A stretch of 64,000 bases of DNA, taken from contig BGKB01000010.1 in the NCBI GenBank assembly GCA_003116975.1, forward strand, positions 186,001 through 250,000, read 5' to 3'. This stretch comes from Aurantiochytrium sp. KH105. Its lineage: Eukaryota > Sar > Bigyra > Thraustochytrida > Thraustochytriidae. Made by a program: the position numbers and the translations under genes. Positions 8,855 to 16,771 of this stretch are shown here, in pieces; the stretch's first letter is position 1, and every line of letters starts with the position of its first letter. The notes beneath the pieces are model-generated. The model had not been told where the DNA came from. It searched no databases and saw only the letters and a program-made list of their open reading frames with translations.

Positions 8855-11800
8855 ATGCCGGGGCGAGAGACCAAACCAGTCCGAGCGCTTCTGATTATTG
8901 ATTGTCAAAATGACTTTATTCCGAGCGAAGATGGCTCTCTTGCTGTGCCCGATGCCGAATCGGTCCTGCCGGTCATCAACAAGCTCCGAAGTAAGGAGTT
9001 TGACTTTGTATATCTGTGTTTAGACTGGCACCCGTACAATCATTGCTCGTTTCGTACCAACAATCCTGGCGCCGATCTCTTTGAGGTGGTTCACTTACCA
9101 ACCACAGGAAATGCTCAAATCATGTGGCCAGACCACTGCGTGCAGGGGACACACGGCGCCGAACTCCACAAAGACCTCAAGATCGAGGCTTCTGACATTT
9201 ACACATATGCAGGATGCAATCCGCAGCGCGACAGCTATTCTGTCTTCAAGGATAACGGTTCGACCGTCCTGACGGAAATGCGTGACCTTCTCGAAGAAAG
9301 CGCGGTGACAGAAATTTATGCCGTCGGTCTTGCGACAGATTACTGTGTACAGTACACGCTTCTCGATGCCAAGAGTCTCTTGCAAGGCGTCGAAGTGTTC
9401 TTCATTCAGGATGGCTGCCGCGGAATCAGCGACGCGGGCGTCAAGGGTGCTGTCGACGCTTTTAAGAGCGAAAAAGTCCACATCATTTCCTCTGGCGGAC
9501 CCGAACTCGGGCGCATTGCAGATCGCAAAATACGCATTGACGGTGGCCTGGAGCTTTTAAAGAGAAATGACCGCGTCACAATGTTCAGCGAGGTCGACAG
9601 GATCTACGAGTCCATCATCTTTCGTACGGCGCAGGGTAAGGCGTGGGAAGAGGACTTGGCGAATCTGGTTCGCAGCGTCATTGTCAATCAGCTTTGTTCC
9701 TGGAGTGGAAAGAATGCGCTGCATGCCTGCTGTGAAATGGGAGACATTCGCACGCTTGAGCATCTGATTCGTGTGGCCGGCAAGGGGCTCAACCTCGGCA
9801 TGCGCACACGCAAAGACGAGAATGCGCTCATGCTTGCCATTCAAAGCAAGGACCCCAAGCATCGCGCGGACATTGTTCGCCTCTTGCTCGATACTGCCGA
9901 CGAGGGCCAGCGCCGCGAGTTGCTCTTTGGCCAAAGCCTGCAGTTTCGTCTTTCTGCTCTCATGTTTGCATGCCGCGACGGTCTTCCAGACGTTGTAAGC
10001 ATCCTTCTCGAGGCAGAATGTTCGTCTTCCCTGAAGCTTCGTAGTGCGTTTGGCAAGACGGCGCTCATGTTTGCGTGCATTTCGAACACACAAGACCACG
10101 CTGCCATTACGGAAATGCTCTTGCGCTCGCAAGCTAAGCTCGAGGACCGCTTTGCGATGCTTCAAGAGACGGACAAGGAACGATGGAACAGTTTGCACTT
10201 TAGCGCCAAATCAGGATCATTCGCCCGGGTCGACTGGAGCAGGGCGCTCGATGGCTACGAGAACATGTCTCGCCTTCCCATCAATGCCAAGACGCTCTCG
10301 GGTATCACCTTTTTACACCTAGCAGCTTTTAACGGGCGATCTGAGGTCATTCGAGCACTCATTGACAACTGTGCCCCGAATCGCAAGCGACGCATGATGG
10401 AGGCCATTTTAAAGAAGGGGCTTCGCCACCGCGTCAAGGTCAACGTTCCTATCAAGGGTTTGGGACATACAGAACTCGATTTAGCGATCCAACGTCGTCA
10501 CCTCGAATGTGCAAGGCTGCTGCTGAGACTGGGTTGCTACGCAGGGACGTCGACGCAGGAGCAGATGCAGGAGCTCCTGCATCGTCTTGTGCTCATGGGC
10601 GACGTGGAGGCCTGCGAGAGCATCCTGAACTTTGCAGACGAGAATCGTGTCACGATCGATGACGCCCTCGTAGAGACAACGCAGCGCATTGAGCACCCGG
10701 AAACCTGCACGGTCTCATTTGCGAATCGGACGGACCCTGTCGCGCAGTTCTTGTACAAGTGCGAAATTTGTGGCGCCAGCGTTTGCCTTGTGTGCAAGGA
10801 CCGCTGTCATGGGCCCGCAGCGTGTCGCCAGGCTTACCTCAAGCTCGACTTTGAGCACTTTCCTAACAAAGGTTGGGAGCCCTGCGGCACGGTGGTGTCG
10901 CAATGTGGCTGCGATCGCGACACCTGCTGTGCCACCGCGGCTACGGACGTGCGCGAGATTGAGGGCTACCGATTTATTCCGCACCCAGTACGAACGAGTG
11001 CTGTTCACCTGAATGCAGAATTACTACGACTCTCGCACTCAATCGCAAGGAACATGCACAACGTCTGGGCGCAAAGCCTTAGCGAGCTGGGATGGAGGTA
11101 TGGTCGGGATAAAGACCCTGACGAAAAAGTGCATCCGCATTTGCTTCCATTTGACTCCCTCTCGATTGAAGGTGCCAAGTACAATATGGACATGTCCGTC
11201 GAGACACTCAAGGTGATCCTTTCGCTTGGATACGAAATCCATCGACGCGTCGAAGCCCCGCGCTTTGGGCGTGATGACACCACCACAACGGACCCTTCCA
11301 CGACGCCAAACGCTGGTTTGAGCTCGAGCCCCAGCAAGGAGCCTGTGCAGCAGGATCCCGTGATGCTCACTAAGGCATTGAGCATGATGGCGAGCGATTC
11401 AACAATGAAGCAGCGCAAGATAAAGCTCGGTGTGACTTCTGCAGATCTGCTCGCAGGAACAGGTAACAAGTACTCTGAGTTTGCGTGGGATATTTCACGC
11501 CCAGACTGCGTTCCGCTCAACACGAGCGGGGTGGAGCTGCCTAAAGAACTCGCAACGCTTACAGAACGGATTGCATCCAACTCGCACGAGGTATGGGCGA
11601 GCGAGAAGATTCGTCAGGGATGGCGTTACGCACCGAGCCGTAATATTCGCAAAGACCTCAAGCTCAACTCGTCGCTTGTCCCTTATTACGTACTCACTCG
11701 TGAAGAGAAAGAACAGCTTCTTCAAGGAGCGCGCGAGACCATGAAAGTAATTCTAATGACGGGCTGGGTTGTACATCCGAAAAACCGCGCGAGCGAAAGC

Positions 11801-14800
11801 AGCGGGTCCAAAGGTCCAAAAGCCAAATTTGCTGCCGGTTCTGGAGCCACGAATGGAAACGATAGCGACGAAGGCTCGAGCGACGATGACGACGATAATG
11901 GGGACGAGGATGACATGTCCGGGGATACGCGTGGATCAGGAAGCGAGAGACGCAACGCAGGAAACCAACTCATGATTCCCTTGCGCAGAAGAGACACTGC
12001 GCAGCCAACCCGCAGCACGCTTGCATTTCGTCAGCTGAAGCTGATTCGCCGCAAGCTCTTTAATCAGTACCTCTTTGCAGCAGTTCGTCGCGGCCAGATC
12101 CACTCTGTCAACATTTTGCTTTCAAAGCGATCGAGCATGCACGTGGGCGCCAACCTCAACGCCATCGACGAATATGGGCACACGCCTTTGTATATTGCCA
12201 TTAAGCGCGGCCAACTCGCCACGGCCAAACGGCTTCTAGCGCTTGGCGCCAATCTTGAGCTGCGTGACATCAATGGTCTCACGCCGCTGGCCCTATGCGC
12301 GTATCTGGGCAATCTCAAATTGTGCATGGAGCTCGTGCAGAATCAAGCACGCATTCTGGTGTGTGACGCCATGGGCTTCACACCGCTGCATCTTGCCGCG
12401 AACCAAGGCCACGTCGAAGTGTGCAAGTATCTCACGGAGCGTCTGCAGCAGGAGCATCAGAGCAACGAGATTGTTGACCTGAACGCAGACATGGTCGATT
12501 ACTCAGCAGCGGACGCCTTAGCGGAAGGCAACGTCATGGAACGGGACTCTGATGACGAGGGCAGTTCCGCGATGGGACGCTCGCGTCGAAGCTTTCGGAC
12601 GATGGCAACAGGGTCGACAAACGCGGGCCAAGCCCAGGCCCGATGGAAGCTTTTTCGAATCGTGTTCCGTTCCCGTGCCATGGGCAGTGAAAGGTCCAAG
12701 GTGGGCCGAATTATCCCTGCAGAGGGTCTCACAGCATCCAAGAACTGGCAAACGGACCAAGTTGACCAGGTCTCCCCACTGCGTCGAATGCCGACACGCC
12801 AGAGCACGCGGCTCTCCGGTCAATCGGAAGCCCTCTTCAATCAAAGCACGCCGCGCGAAGGAATCGCTTCGGTGCAAACAGGTTTGATGCCAAGCCGCAC
12901 TACGCAGAAACTCTTGCGGTCAGGAAGCGACCTGGGCGAGGCAGCGGCACAGTCGCGACTTTCGGGGTACCCGCCATTGTCGCTTGCAGTGCAATCAGAC
13001 AATATTGAGATTGTGGAGCTTCTCATCAAGTACGGAGCAAACCCGATGCTCGCCGACGGCCCGGCAGCTATGTTCAGTCCATACGTGCGTGCCCTGCTTC
13101 GGCATATTGAGATGTGCGCAAAGGTTGAATATCTGCAGGATCGGATCTCGCGGCGTGCGCTGTACGACTTGCAAACAGCTGGAACCGTCCGGGCAGATGA
13201 AAAACCGCCAAACAAGCTTGGACAAGATGGCCGCAAGGTTGGGCCCGGGGGAGCTTCCATGCGACAATCGGGTAGCTCGCTCATTCCGATGGACACCTAT
13301 CGCGGCGATCCAGTCTCGGGCGATCAAAATAGCTTTGACTACGTCGACCCCAACGCGCTGAATCTAACGAATCGTACGCAATCGCAGCGGACGCCCGGCA
13401 GCATGACCCCCAAGTCGTTGCCACCCATTGGCATTCCAGGTCGCAAACACTTTGGCATGGTCAAACGATTAGACACGCGAATTGGAAATCTTTTCGGCTT
13501 TGCTGGCGGTGACGGCGGCGTTCAAGACATGCAAGAGCGCGTCGCTCCTGATCTCGGTCCGGATGGCCCCTCGGGCATGACGGGAAACCTCAACACACAG
13601 CAAGTGAGTTCTACGCGCGAGCTCGATCAGTTATTAGAAAAGGCACAGGATGAGCGTGCAAAGGCAGCTCGCATGGTGGAGGTGATGAATCAATCATCCA
13701 AGGTGAGCGCATGGCGAAGGCGGACGGCCATCAAGATGTGTGTCAAAGAGACAAGTCTTTTGCTCATCCTTATCATCTCATTCGGTTGCCTTGTACAGCT
13801 CTCGCCAGACTACGGGATCGAATCCGAGGGGGAATGGGCGGACCAGCTACGTGGACATCTTGCGCAAAGCACTGCGAGTATTGACGGCCCAGCGGACTTT
13901 TTGGATTGGGTTCAACACAAGTTTGTTGGCGAGGAGCTCTTGCGGGCTGCAAATCGCACTGCATGGCGTGGGAAGAACTTTGTCTTTGGCGGGATTGCTC
14001 TCGATATGTATGAGCACAACGCACTTGAAGAGCTTGACAATGCCCAGCTGACCACAATCGCAAGTCTTGACACCTCGACAGAGTATCAGACGTCGCTGCT
14101 GCCGCAAGCTGACAAGGAGGAGCTCTTGGATATCCTGACCAGCGAGACAGGGAACTGGACCCAGAACGAAGTTCATATCCTCTCTCTCACCTTCAACCTG
14201 TACAACCCATTCTACGAAGTGTACGGCATCGCTGAAGTGCGGCAAACCTCCTCGTTTGTGGGTCTGAACAGCTTGGATGTGGATGTGAAACCCTTTCGAC
14301 TTCACTATGGCAGGTTTCCGCCGTCTCGATCATTTCAGCTGGCTGTGCTGATTATGGTCATTTGCTTCACCATCACCAAGCTGCGAAGCTGGGTTCGTGC
14401 TCGGCACCGTTCGCGAGGGCGGCGAACAGAGGAATGGGTGATTGAGTTTTTGCTTTTGGGCATTCTCATTTTTGACATTTACGTCTACGAGGTCACAAAA
14501 GATGTGACGCCGGACTACACATCGAGCGAGCGACTGGATCTGTCGCAAGCCTACCGCTTGCTTGAGGTTGAGCGGAGGTTTTTTGCCATCTACTTTTTGC
14601 TCAGTGTGCTGCCGCTGCTCAAGGCGACGCAGACGATTCCGTCGATAGGGCCCGTGGTCGTGGCGCTGCTGAGCACCATGACGAATACGGCCGTTCTCAT
14701 CTATTTGCTTGTTATTTCGACGGCGTGCTTTTTGCTCACGCTTACGTTTCACGTTGGCTTTGGCATTTCTGTCTCGCAGTTCGCCACCATGATTACAACC

Positions 14801-15304
14801 TTTGAGAGCCTTTTTCTCACGCCATTTGTGGAGACTTGGGACGGCATCATAACAAGTTCGCACTCTTCATATCTCGGTGCTGTGCTTGCGGTGTTTTACA
14901 TTCTCTTTGCGACAATTTCGCTCAATCTGCTCATAGCTATTGTAACAGACGTGTATCCGAGTGCTCGCGCTGCGTCGGATCGTGAGTGGGAGGAGATTAT
15001 CACGGGCGGAATCGAAGATAACCTGCGGGATTTGCTGCACCGGCAGAATATTTCGCAAAAGGATCTCCGCATCGAGACGTGGAATGAGGCCAAGCTACTC
15101 ACGGGTCGGGATGGGCGAAAGCATTGGGTCGCTTCGGATGCTGTGAACGACGACGACGAAGGTTGCGAGGCCGGAGCGGCAGCCATGGATGGGAGCTCTT
15201 CGCATCAAAGTACTAACGACAAGCTCGCAGCGCTTTCTGAACAGATTCGGCAGCTCACTTCGATTGTTAAAAGTTTGCGCGCAGCTCCAGGTGCAACCGA
15301 CTGA
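8855..15304 (+). CDS. Nicotinamidase-like / ankyrin / RyR-repeat / polycystin-TRP channel fusion protein
   Basis: Single 2149-residue frame without introns. Residues 8-215 are a nicotinamidase/isochorismatase fold: catalytic-type Asp16 (IIDCQNDF), metal ligands Asp57, His59, His63 and His94 (WPDHCV), and nucleophile Cys164 (GLATDYCV). The family lysine seems replaced by Tyr118. Then come ankyrin repeats (about 282-562), a Cys/His cluster resembling a UBR box (about 612-690), two ryanodine-receptor repeats (about 718-795 and 892-975, each with a WA...GW.Y and an ETLKVIL-like ending), an acidic linker, more ankyrin repeats (about 1069-1200 and 1370-1420), and a six-helix channel. TM1 lies near 1632; an extracellular domain of about 180 residues follows as in polycystins; TM2-TM5 lie at about 1828-1965; the pore helix is near 1978; TM6 (LNLLIAIVTDVY) is near 2010. 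A short C-terminal helix ends it. It is probably a cation channel gated or tuned by an NAD-related metabolite; that role is inference. Confidence 0.9.
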   Translation: MPGRETKPVRALLIIDCQNDFIPSEDGSLAVPDAESVLPVINKLRSKEFDFVYLCLDWHPYNHCSFRTNNPGADLFEVVHLPTTGNAQIMWPDHCVQGTHGAELHKDLKIEASDIYTYAGCNPQRDSYSVFKDNGSTVLTEMRDLLEESAVTEIYAVGLATDYCVQYTLLDAKSLLQGVEVFFIQDGCRGISDAGVKGAVDAFKSEKVHIISSGGPELGRIADRKIRIDGGLELLKRNDRVTMFSEVDRIYESIIFRTAQGKAWEEDLANLVRSVIVNQLCSWSGKNALHACCEMGDIRTLEHLIRVAGKGLNLGMRTRKDENALMLAIQSKDPKHRADIVRLLLDTADEGQRRELLFGQSLQFRLSALMFACRDGLPDVVSILLEAECSSSLKLRSAFGKTALMFACISNTQDHAAITEMLLRSQAKLEDRFAMLQETDKERWNSLHFSAKSGSFARVDWSRALDGYENMSRLPINAKTLSGITFLHLAAFNGRSEVIRALIDNCAPNRKRRMMEAILKKGLRHRVKVNVPIKGLGHTELDLAIQRRHLECARLLLRLGCYAGTSTQEQMQELLHRLVLMGDVEACESILNFADENRVTIDDALVETTQRIEHPETCTVSFANRTDPVAQFLYKCEICGASVCLVCKDRCHGPAACRQAYLKLDFEHFPNKGWEPCGTVVSQCGCDRDTCCATAATDVREIEGYRFIPHPVRTSAVHLNAELLRLSHSIARNMHNVWAQSLSELGWRYGRDKDPDEKVHPHLLPFDSLSIEGAKYNMDMSVETLKVILSLGYEIHRRVEAPRFGRDDTTTTDPSTTPNAGLSSSPSKEPVQQDPVMLTKALSMMASDSTMKQRKIKLGVTSADLLAGTGNKYSEFAWDISRPDCVPLNTSGVELPKELATLTERIASNSHEVWASEKIRQGWRYAPSRNIRKDLKLNSSLVPYYVLTREEKEQLLQGARETMKVILMTGWVVHPKNRASESSGSKGPKAKFAAGSGATNGNDSDEGSSDDDDDNGDEDDMSGDTRGSGSERRNAGNQLMIPLRRRDTAQPTRSTLAFRQLKLIRRKLFNQYLFAAVRRGQIHSVNILLSKRSSMHVGANLNAIDEYGHTPLYIAIKRGQLATAKRLLALGANLELRDINGLTPLALCAYLGNLKLCMELVQNQARILVCDAMGFTPLHLAANQGHVEVCKYLTERLQQEHQSNEIVDLNADMVDYSAADALAEGNVMERDSDDEGSSAMGRSRRSFRTMATGSTNAGQAQARWKLFRIVFRSRAMGSERSKVGRIIPAEGLTASKNWQTDQVDQVSPLRRMPTRQSTRLSGQSEALFNQSTPREGIASVQTGLMPSRTTQKLLRSGSDLGEAAAQSRLSGYPPLSLAVQSDNIEIVELLIKYGANPMLADGPAAMFSPYVRALLRHIEMCAKVEYLQDRISRRALYDLQTAGTVRADEKPPNKLGQDGRKVGPGGASMRQSGSSLIPMDTYRGDPVSGDQNSFDYVDPNALNLTNRTQSQRTPGSMTPKSLPPIGIPGRKHFGMVKRLDTRIGNLFGFAGGDGGVQDMQERVAPDLGPDGPSGMTGNLNTQQVSSTRELDQLLEKAQDERAKAARMVEVMNQSSKVSAWRRRTAIKMCVKETSLLLILIISFGCLVQLSPDYGIESEGEWADQLRGHLAQSTASIDGPADFLDWVQHKFVGEELLRAANRTAWRGKNFVFGGIALDMYEHNALEELDNAQLTTIASLDTSTEYQTSLLPQADKEELLDILTSETGNWTQNEVHILSLTFNLYNPFYEVYGIAEVRQTSSFVGLNSLDVDVKPFRLHYGRFPPSRSFQLAVLIMVICFTITKLRSWVRARHRSRGRRTEEWVIEFLLLGILIFDIYVYEVTKDVTPDYTSSERLDLSQAYRLLEVERRFFAIYFLLSVLPLLKATQTIPSIGPVVVALLSTMTNTAVLIYLLVISTACFLLTLTFHVGFGISVSQFATMITTFESLFLTPFVETWDGIITSSHSSYLGAVLAVFYILFATISLNLLIAIVTDVYPSARAASDREWEEIITGGIEDNLRDLLHRQNISQKDLRIETWNEAKLLTGRDGRKHWVASDAVNDDDEGCEAGAAAMDGSSSHQSTNDKLAALSEQIRQLTSIVKSLRAAPGATD

Positions 15305-15363: not shown

Positions 15364-15787
15364 ATTTGCCTGATCTCTTCCAGCGCGCTCAAAATTAACT
15401 CGCGCGCCTTGAAATTAAGCACAGGGAAGGATCTCTGCCCGTAGATTGCTGTGCCAAATTTTAAAGGCTTGGGAACCAGTTTTGGTCAAGGGGTAGGGAA
15501 AACTAGATTTGGGGGAAGGCGGCGGAGAAGCGGCCTATTTGGCCAGAATAGACCGATACAGTGAGACCGAACGAAATTAATTAGGAGTAATATGACTAAG
15601 ACTGTGTTAGGTGAGTTTCGCCTAGCCAAATTTTAAATTGCGTTGCGCTCGGGTGATCAAGATTTGCCGGGCTCCAAATGAGAGCACAATTGCTTAAATG
15701 AGCGAATGAGCATGCCAGGAGGTGCTGCTGAGTGACNGAGAAACCCGCTCATCGAGAGCCGTCTCCGAAGACCGCACTGTCGCGGTC

Positions 15788-16417
15788 TTAATTTTCAGAG
15801 CGAACACATATTTCTCCAACTGGTTGCACTCCGGCATGGTTTCTTCGAGACTGTCCGCATCGCTTTCCTCGAGCGAGCCTTTCGTTATAAATCGTTGCAC
15901 ATTCATTGAGCCATGTTTCGAAGATGTTAATAAAGTTTGGCGGCATGATCATGTGAAAGATCTCGGCGGGTTGCATGCCCTCATCGTCATCACTTTTGTT
16001 CGCTTGCTCGCGGAGACGCTTCACGACCACATCTGCCTCCCGTTTGAGCTTCTCGAGAGCCAAACTTCCGTACGGATTAAATTTCAAATCAACCGAGTCA
16101 AGAGGGCGTAGTGCCCCCGCGAGGTCACCGTGATACGCGGCGTTACGCCGTGAAAAGGACTCAAAGCTCCAGGAACCGCGTCCTGTCAGCTTGATCGATT
16201 CTCCAAAAGAATCATCTTGCTCGTCTTGCAGATCGGCATGATCCCAGTCAATATCATCTCGAGCGCCCTCATCGAGCTCATGTGCACGCTCCTCCTCCTC
16301 CTCCTCCGTGCTTGGGCTGACGTTGAGCTGCAGCGTCTCGACCAGCTCTCGACATGGGCCTCGCCATCGCTCGAGGCAGTTGCCAGCTTCAAACTCGCGC
16401 AACGGGCCGCTATGCAA
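15788..16417 (-). pseudogene. Remnant of piggyBac-like transposase N-terminus
   Basis: A 209-residue frame inside the transposon. It has an acidic N-terminal region (a run of Glu near residue 38, Asp-rich after residue 52), as in piggyBac-type transposases, and near residues 150-175 a segment PAEIFHMIMPPNFINIFETW followed by a helix. This resembles the family's entry motif (F..FF.DE.I..I...TN). The frame then stops after about 35 residues of unrelated sequence, so the DDD catalytic domain is missing. An ambiguous base (N) sits at 15737, just downstream. It is probably non-functional. The family assignment leans on the element's ends as much as on the protein. Confidence 0.5.
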
Positions 16418-16771
16418 ACAAATTGGACGCGATCATGCCAGGGGTACGATCGCAGAGCGTGACTCGCGACGCTGCCAAGCTTTTCTGCTCGCTGTAGCCG
16501 CTGTAGCGCTTGATGAAGCGCGGTCGTTAGGTCATGGTCAAGTTCGCCCTCACGGTACCCAACTTTGCAGAAGAACAACAACCCTTCCACCGGGAGAATT
16601 TGCCTGCAAACTTGCAGAGGGGTGCGGGGGCATCGTGGGAACGATCTGGCCAATCGGCAAGATTTAAAATTGAATAGAAGTATTTAATGCAATGCCTCGC
16701 GTGTTTGCCAGAGATTTCGTTCGGTCTCACTGACCCAGCCTGCCGCCGGATCGGGGAAACTATTTCGCCGA

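Follow-up and report, generated by a model that had tools for sequence, protein, structure and literature searches.

A polycystin-like channel gene of Aurantiochytrium sp. KH105 with a nicotinamidase-type domain that may have become a ligand sensor

Within a 64,000-nucleotide stretch of the Aurantiochytrium sp. KH105 genome (the window; positions 186001–250000 of contig BGKB01000010.1, here C10, in a 76.0-Mb assembly of 367 contigs), one long gene at window positions 8855–15304 joins an N-terminal nicotinamidase-type hydrolase domain to a six-helix ion channel. We see it as nearly an even chance that the product is a polycystin/TRP-kind cation channel whose captured nicotinamidase, sitting on the cytosolic N-terminus, has turned into a ligand sensor, most likely for nicotinamide. 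More tentatively, it may be a nicotinamide-gated polycystin-type channel that arose through the loss of one lysine, perhaps with a paralogous subunit carrying a dead sensor, and independently of TRPM2. An earlier note on this DNA had proposed that the gene couples NAD+ turnover to cation entry. Since the catalytic lysine is absent (its place is taken by Ala119) and a decayed paralogue has lost five of the six active-site residues checked, we consider NAD+ turnover by the channel unlikely and sensing the better reading.

Active site of the hydrolase domain

The gene and the parts of its hydrolase domain are as follows (window coordinates).

8855–15304, + strand: whole gene; uninterrupted frame, with copies on contigs C7, C41 and C16
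8885–9487, + strand: nicotinamidase/isochorismatase-type domain, residues 11–211 (PF00857, E 1e-17; NF008623; PDB 2wt9)
8900–8902, + strand: Asp16, catalytic Asp, kept in the alignment with relatives
9209–9211, + strand: codon GCA for Ala119, where the catalytic lysine would stand (32 of 33 bacterial relatives have Lys)
9344–9346, + strand: Cys164, catalytic cysteine, kept in the alignment with relatives

The best PDB match of the domain is the nicotinamidase PncA (2wt9; 157.8 bits), which is from Acinetobacter according to the text of PMC3581539. Of 14 PDB matches the best seven are nicotinamidases, 3r2j on the word of that same text and the other six by name. The nicotinamidase model NF008623 scores 167.8 bits on the window protein, just under its cut-off of 174. 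Fold, catalytic Asp and Cys and metal ligands are shared with PncA, from which the window domain differs in having Ala for the catalytic Lys and in being fused to a channel.

We aligned the domain with all 33 bacterial relatives found. It keeps Asp16, Cys164 and the residues D57, H59 and H94, which we take to be the Asp-His-His metal ligands, as well as Phe21 and Trp58, presumably of the pocket. Ala119 (GCA) occupies the lysine position in both the C10 copy and its near-identical counterpart on C7. Among the relatives the Asp is found in 32/33, the Cys in 31/33 and the Lys in 32/33; the three metal residues occur together in 30/33, and 29 of those 30 have the Lys. Some rows of the alignment need care: three from Pseudovibrio (L081–L083) lack the metal residues and are poorly aligned, that of L079 is partial and that of L061 was read through a stop codon. 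One relative from Erysipelotrichaceae (L080:1501-1671) has His for the Asp, Ile for the Lys and no Cys, and is apparently a decayed bacterial copy. The domain had been described as a full nicotinamidase; this is upheld for the fold and fails for the triad, and a working nicotinamidase is disfavoured by the missing lysine. The same change in the Oceanobacillus nicotinamidase, K104A, is reported in PMC3581539 to leave 1.45% of activity. As described there, the mutant protein was solubilised from inclusion bodies and its authors blame improper refolding in part, while concluding that K104 belongs to the triad.

The domain is under purifying selection. Between the C10 and C7 copies it shows 15 synonymous and 2 non-synonymous differences (dN/dS 0.036), and between the two copies of the paralogue, on C41 and C16, 11 and 2 (dN/dS 0.053). 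The paralogue domain still matches NF008623 (E 7.1e-14). Five of its active-site residues are gone: His stands for Asp16, Thr for the Lys, and Arg and Glu for two metal ligands (the Asp and one His), while the Cys is missing. Phe21 is replaced by Val; one metal His and the Trp are retained. A domain that can scarcely be catalytic and is yet constrained points to sensing, assembly or structure as its role in this family.

Catalysis itself may happen elsewhere in the cell. Searching the genome with NF008623 returned the fused copies on C10 (168 bits), C7 (165.6 bits) and C41 and C16 (52.5 bits each), followed by a stand-alone pair on C93 and C31 (28 bits) in frames of 309 and 319 codons. In the C93 protein (L050:303-1229, − strand) the Asp, the metal residues, the Lys and the Cys are all in place; as a whole protein it scores 52.2 bits to NF008623, and its best PDB match (E 2.1e-6) is a weak nicotinamidase resemblance. 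It is perhaps the host's own enzyme for the catalytic step. A genome search for the NAPRTase family found one pair of places only, and the protein encoded there is a nicotinate phosphoribosyltransferase (TIGR01513, 544.9 bits; PDB 4yub), which makes recycling of nicotinamide through nicotinate plausible in this host. It is this enzyme, together with the stand-alone C93 hydrolase and its Asp, Lys and Cys, that suggests a separate site of catalysis. The Pfam Isochorismatase search of the genome gave a further stand-alone pair, on C44 and C108 (76 bits), which looks YcaC-like and was set aside. The genome gave 0 matches to PF00504, so that by this family the host is not photosynthetic, and its long PfaA-type matches stay under the family cut-off (930 of 1010 bits), with a model that also responds in 11 of 14 control genomes; such a picture would fit a thraustochytrid.

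Frame, copies and domain layout

The frame starts with ATG and runs for 2149 codons plus a stop with no internal stop, a length expected by chance at about 10^-39 for its base composition. When the complete protein was run against the genome (22 of 374 candidates scored), full-length relatives appeared at four places: C10 itself, a C7 copy that is an allele or duplicate (99% identity), and the diverged paralogue pair on C41 and C16 (36% identity over the whole alignment with the window protein). The remaining rows were ankyrin or single RyR matches. All four copies are single uninterrupted frames with an identical order of parts. The single frame, and an enzyme-type domain at the N-terminus of the same protein as the channel, had both been reported in the earlier note, and both are confirmed, the latter by the Pfam match at residues 11–211. 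Over the whole gene the C10 and C7 copies differ by 136.5 synonymous and 33.5 non-synonymous changes (dN/dS 0.071).

Could the single frame nevertheless come from a pair of neighbouring genes, or from a join made in assembly? The fusion is read here from the DNA sequence; an assembly N lies at 15737, 433 bases past the stop; and in the paralogue pair the hydrolase-ankyrin junction shows 4 synonymous and 6 non-synonymous differences and the tail 3 and 11, so that these linkers are weakly constrained there. Against this, the same one-frame order occurs in two near-identical and two paralogue copies on four contigs, coding-type substitutions span the junction of the window gene (residues 216–280: 5 synonymous, 1 non-synonymous between C10 and C7), and the N falls outside the gene. 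The same order in four uninterrupted frames and the coding-type differences between C10 and C7 make either possibility very unlikely, and we reject misassembly, which had been named as a way in which the junction might be false, along with a gene pair.

From its N-terminus the protein is built of the nicotinamidase-type domain, ankyrin repeats, a Cys-rich box, two RyR domains, ankyrin again and the six-helix channel. Pfam matches comprise Isochorismatase, RyR in two stretches (E 1.2e-47) and ankyrin families. Ankyrin repeats and two RyR domains had been placed between enzyme and channel; they are there, with the correction that ankyrin flanks the RyR pair on both sides and that the Cys-rich box precedes the first RyR domain. 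The remaining parts lie at these positions.

9488–9694, + strand: linker from hydrolase domain to ankyrin block (approximate); 5 synonymous and 1 non-synonymous differences between copies over residues 216–280
9695–10624, + strand: first ankyrin block (limits approximate, by eye); Pfam ankyrin models, paralogue alignment
10706–10954, + strand: Cys-rich box, possibly a UBR/IBR-type zinc finger (IBR E 0.0018, zf-UBR E 0.23, below cut-off)
10973–11242, + strand: RyR domain 1 (PF02026, 88.8 bits)
11513–11776, + strand: RyR domain 2 (PF02026, 84.2 bits)
12050–12454, + strand: second ankyrin block (limits approximate, by eye); Pfam, paralogue alignment
12950–13054, + strand: further ankyrin repeat ahead of the channel (approximate); Ank_3 at residues 1371–1397
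13739–14944, + strand: six-helix channel, S1–S6 (hydropathy; Ion_trans below cut-off; hhalign 96.8% to six own polycystins)
13796–14326, + strand: long S1–S2 loop, probably extracellular (hydropathy)
14831–14842, + strand: pore motif ETWD, residues 1993–1996, likely selectivity filter (kept in the paralogue; aligned with the NavAb fusion)
15203–15301, + strand: C-terminal tail with a heptad-like stretch, possible coiled coil (sequence inspected by eye)

The box before RyR 1 possibly resembles a UBR or IBR zinc finger; the IBR match is in the window protein, the zf-UBR match in the paralogue, and both are under cut-off. Domain-model scans of the window protein found no MIR, RIH or RyR-type channel domain, the RyR domain alone being present, and no Nudix (NUDT9-H) domain. 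A relative of the ryanodine receptor was rejected, since the RyR domain alone is common to both.

Elsewhere in the genome a short stand-alone frame with one RyR domain exists in two copies (L014:2911-3672, − strand; L015:2602-3363, + strand), and this domain is the genome's best RyR match (118.1 bits). The paralogue at L011:2602-8946 (+ strand) has a long extra tail, its last ~270 residues, which is absent from the window gene and comprises a heptad-like stretch and a C-terminal segment common to its two copies. Just past the stop codon of the channel gene lies a dispersed repeat (window 15400–16700) with at least 58 genome matches, itself included (40 of 55 candidates scored), six of them elsewhere at 99–100% over 963 bases. 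The N at 15737 falls on the border between two matching blocks of this repeat, and the compared 1.7 kb of C7 flank contains nothing that matches the first 1.5 kb after the stop.

The channel and its kinship

A hydropathy scan gave ten overlapping runs, all within residues 1624–2035 and none starting before 1624, which we grouped by eye into six membrane segments (residues 1629–2030). The S1–S2 loop is about 177 residues long with two N-glycosylation motifs. Ion_trans matches residues 1861–2038 of the window protein at 23.0 bits, just under the 25-bit cut-off, and its best E-value among the four copies is 7.1e-7. The ETWD motif is kept in the paralogue and aligns with the ESW pore motif of the NavAb fusion chain.

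Direct comparisons gave weak signals of kinship, and the polycystin label needs the alignment of profile to profile. Neither PKD_channel nor Polycystin_dom of Pfam matches the window protein in domain-model scans, and none of the four copies is among the genome's 45 PKD_channel (PF08016) matches. A profile of the four channels aligned in hhalign with six polycystins of the same genome at 96.8% probability (E 2.7e-10) over 276 columns, which start where the extracellular domain ends and reach S6. The corresponding value was 3.7% against the ankyrin-polycystin set, 32% against L042, and 1.4 and 2.3% against two other channels. In blastp, L044, a four-domain channel, comes first among matches beyond the family (E 4.6e-4), and the profile of the four channels reached at best 9.1 bits on channels outside the family (L042). 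In the PDB, phmmer found bacterial ion transport proteins (E 0.0016), the NavAb fusion (E 0.0031) and TRPC3 (E 0.11), and the trp model of NCBIfam scored 13.9 bits (E 0.01). Six helices with a polycystin-like extracellular domain had been proposed. The six segments and the long S1–S2 loop stand, whereas the absence of a Pfam PKD_channel match and the 3.7% against the ankyrin set do not favour the polycystin part. We call the channel polycystin-like, short of a proven polycystin, a label that one of the two profile comparisons bears out and that is still somewhat provisional.

Of the host's 45 PKD_channel places we scanned 20 frames. With the limit set at E 0.001, no isochorismatase or RyR domain turned up in any of them; ankyrin occurs in five and DEP domains in one, so that several host channels bear added domains. 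Four of these (L029, L033, L034 and L036, with ankyrin) and the DEP-bearing L041 likewise have a sensor-type N-terminus ahead of a polycystin channel. The four ankyrin-polycystin channels are 1943–2320 aa long, with Pfam naming ahead of the channel no domain except ankyrin repeats, and L041:2040-5216 (+ strand) has two N-terminal DEP matches.

Related systems and the readings weighed

The closest known architecture, absent from the earlier note, is the oomycete PKDRR, described as a polycystin channel with two RyR domains near its C-terminus and reported, in these two surveys, only in oomycetes (PMC7399828, PMC4820453). Some members are said there to have additional distinct domains, and that of Albugo laibachii to be about twice as long. 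A polycystin-type channel and a tandem RyR pair in one protein are common to PKDRR and the window protein. In PKDRR, as described, the RyR pair follows the channel, whereas in the window gene the pair (10973–11776) precedes it (13739–14944); the pore motif is ETWD instead of LGA or AG(D/E); and the window gene has, in addition, the nicotinamidase-type domain and two blocks of ankyrin repeats. In their main texts, PMC7399828 contains neither "isochorismatase" nor "nicotinamidase" and PMC4820453 no "isochorismatase", figures and supplements being outside this scope. Among the matches listed, the open-access literature contained no report of a nicotinamidase/isochorismatase domain on a channel and nothing related on an isochorismatase as pseudoenzyme; the claim that no channel of such make-up has been described met no counterexample there.

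TRPM2 offers a functional parallel. PMC11479946 describes its NAD-related hydrolase as active in a choanoflagellate. In man it is reported as inactive (PMC6461439), the domain having lost activity and serving as a binding domain (PMC5671594). As far as these sources go, both proteins would be TRP-superfamily channels fused to a hydrolase of NAD metabolism, with catalysis lost in one lineage, and the analogy drawn in the earlier note is supported. TRPM2 has a C-terminal Nudix fold that binds ADP-ribose, and the window protein an N-terminal cysteine-hydrolase fold with a putative nicotinamide-type pocket; TRPM2 also belongs to a different TRP branch, and the two work alike at most. A second parallel is the activation by nicotinamide of the worm and fly TRPV channels OSM-9/OCR-4 and Nan-Iav (PMC5064019). 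These too are nicotinamide-responsive TRP-superfamily cation channels, if the window protein responds as we infer, but they are TRPV channels, not polycystins, and the abstract of PMC5064019 does not mention a nicotinamidase domain.

Under the sensor reading, the retained metal and aromatic pocket would bind nicotinamide or a related pyridine without turnover, and the ankyrin and RyR modules would pass the binding signal on to a tetrameric pore. Nicotinamide released by NAD+ consumption would then alter the entry of cations, probably calcium, and the paralogue, without a binding site, may be a non-sensing partner subunit. Several points weigh against this proposal. A low dN/dS is constraint and no sign of ligand binding, and the constraint on the paralogue's decayed domain fits a purely structural role as well. 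Nicotinamide binding and gating are what we infer from sequence, and the polycystin kinship of the channel is not secure. Moreover, the fused pair outscores the stand-alone protein on NF008623 (168 against 28 bits, or 52.2 for the whole protein), and with a domain so much closer to known nicotinamidases it could still be the main nicotinamidase if another residue replaces the lysine.

That last point leads to a working channel-enzyme, in which nicotinamide would be deamidated slowly or in altered fashion and gating coupled to turnover as in choanoflagellate TRPM2. Here Cys164, Asp16 and the metal site remain, no other nicotinamidase-type domain found in the genome scores as high as the fused one, the nicotinate phosphoribosyltransferase pair as sole NAPRTase-family match means that a nicotinamidase may be needed somewhere, and a slow enzyme can, by the account in PMC11479946, serve gating. 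We think this improbable, as Ala stands at the lysine position in both copies, the homologue kept so little activity after K104A (PMC3581539), and a stand-alone candidate with a complete triad exists. Rather less unlikely, though still on the doubtful side, is a role in structure or assembly alone: an old hydrolase fold would have been retained in the cytosol as a scaffold where subunits touch, and no ligand would be involved. The paralogue, with its five active-site losses and yet 11 synonymous to 2 non-synonymous differences, speaks for this, and structural constraint alone yields such a pattern. The window copy, however, keeps Asp16, Cys164, the three metal residues, Phe21 and Trp58, which is hard to explain for a useless pocket. 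The domain might also sense a different cue, be it some other small amide or carboxylate, a metal ion, or an oxidant that attacks Cys164. Several amides are substrates of the isochorismatase-like superfamily, and an unpaired, reactive Cys next to a metal site might work as a redox sensor; with nicotinamidases as the closest relatives by sequence, we hold this reading to be quite improbable, more so than the channel-enzyme.

The well-known case of a channel whose gate is worked by a hydrolase captured from NAD metabolism is TRPM2. If the sensor reading is true, the window gene would be a second, unrelated capture, of a different enzyme, at the opposite end of the protein and in a different TRP branch, and NAD-linked channel sensors would arise repeatedly. 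If the host is not an oomycete, polycystin-kind channels with RyR domains would also extend beyond the group to which the two surveys, as far as their text goes, assign them (PMC7399828, PMC4820453). The gene would make it possible to ask of a natural protein how losing one catalytic residue makes an enzyme a receptor, and it would tie the breakdown of NAD+ directly to the entry of cations.

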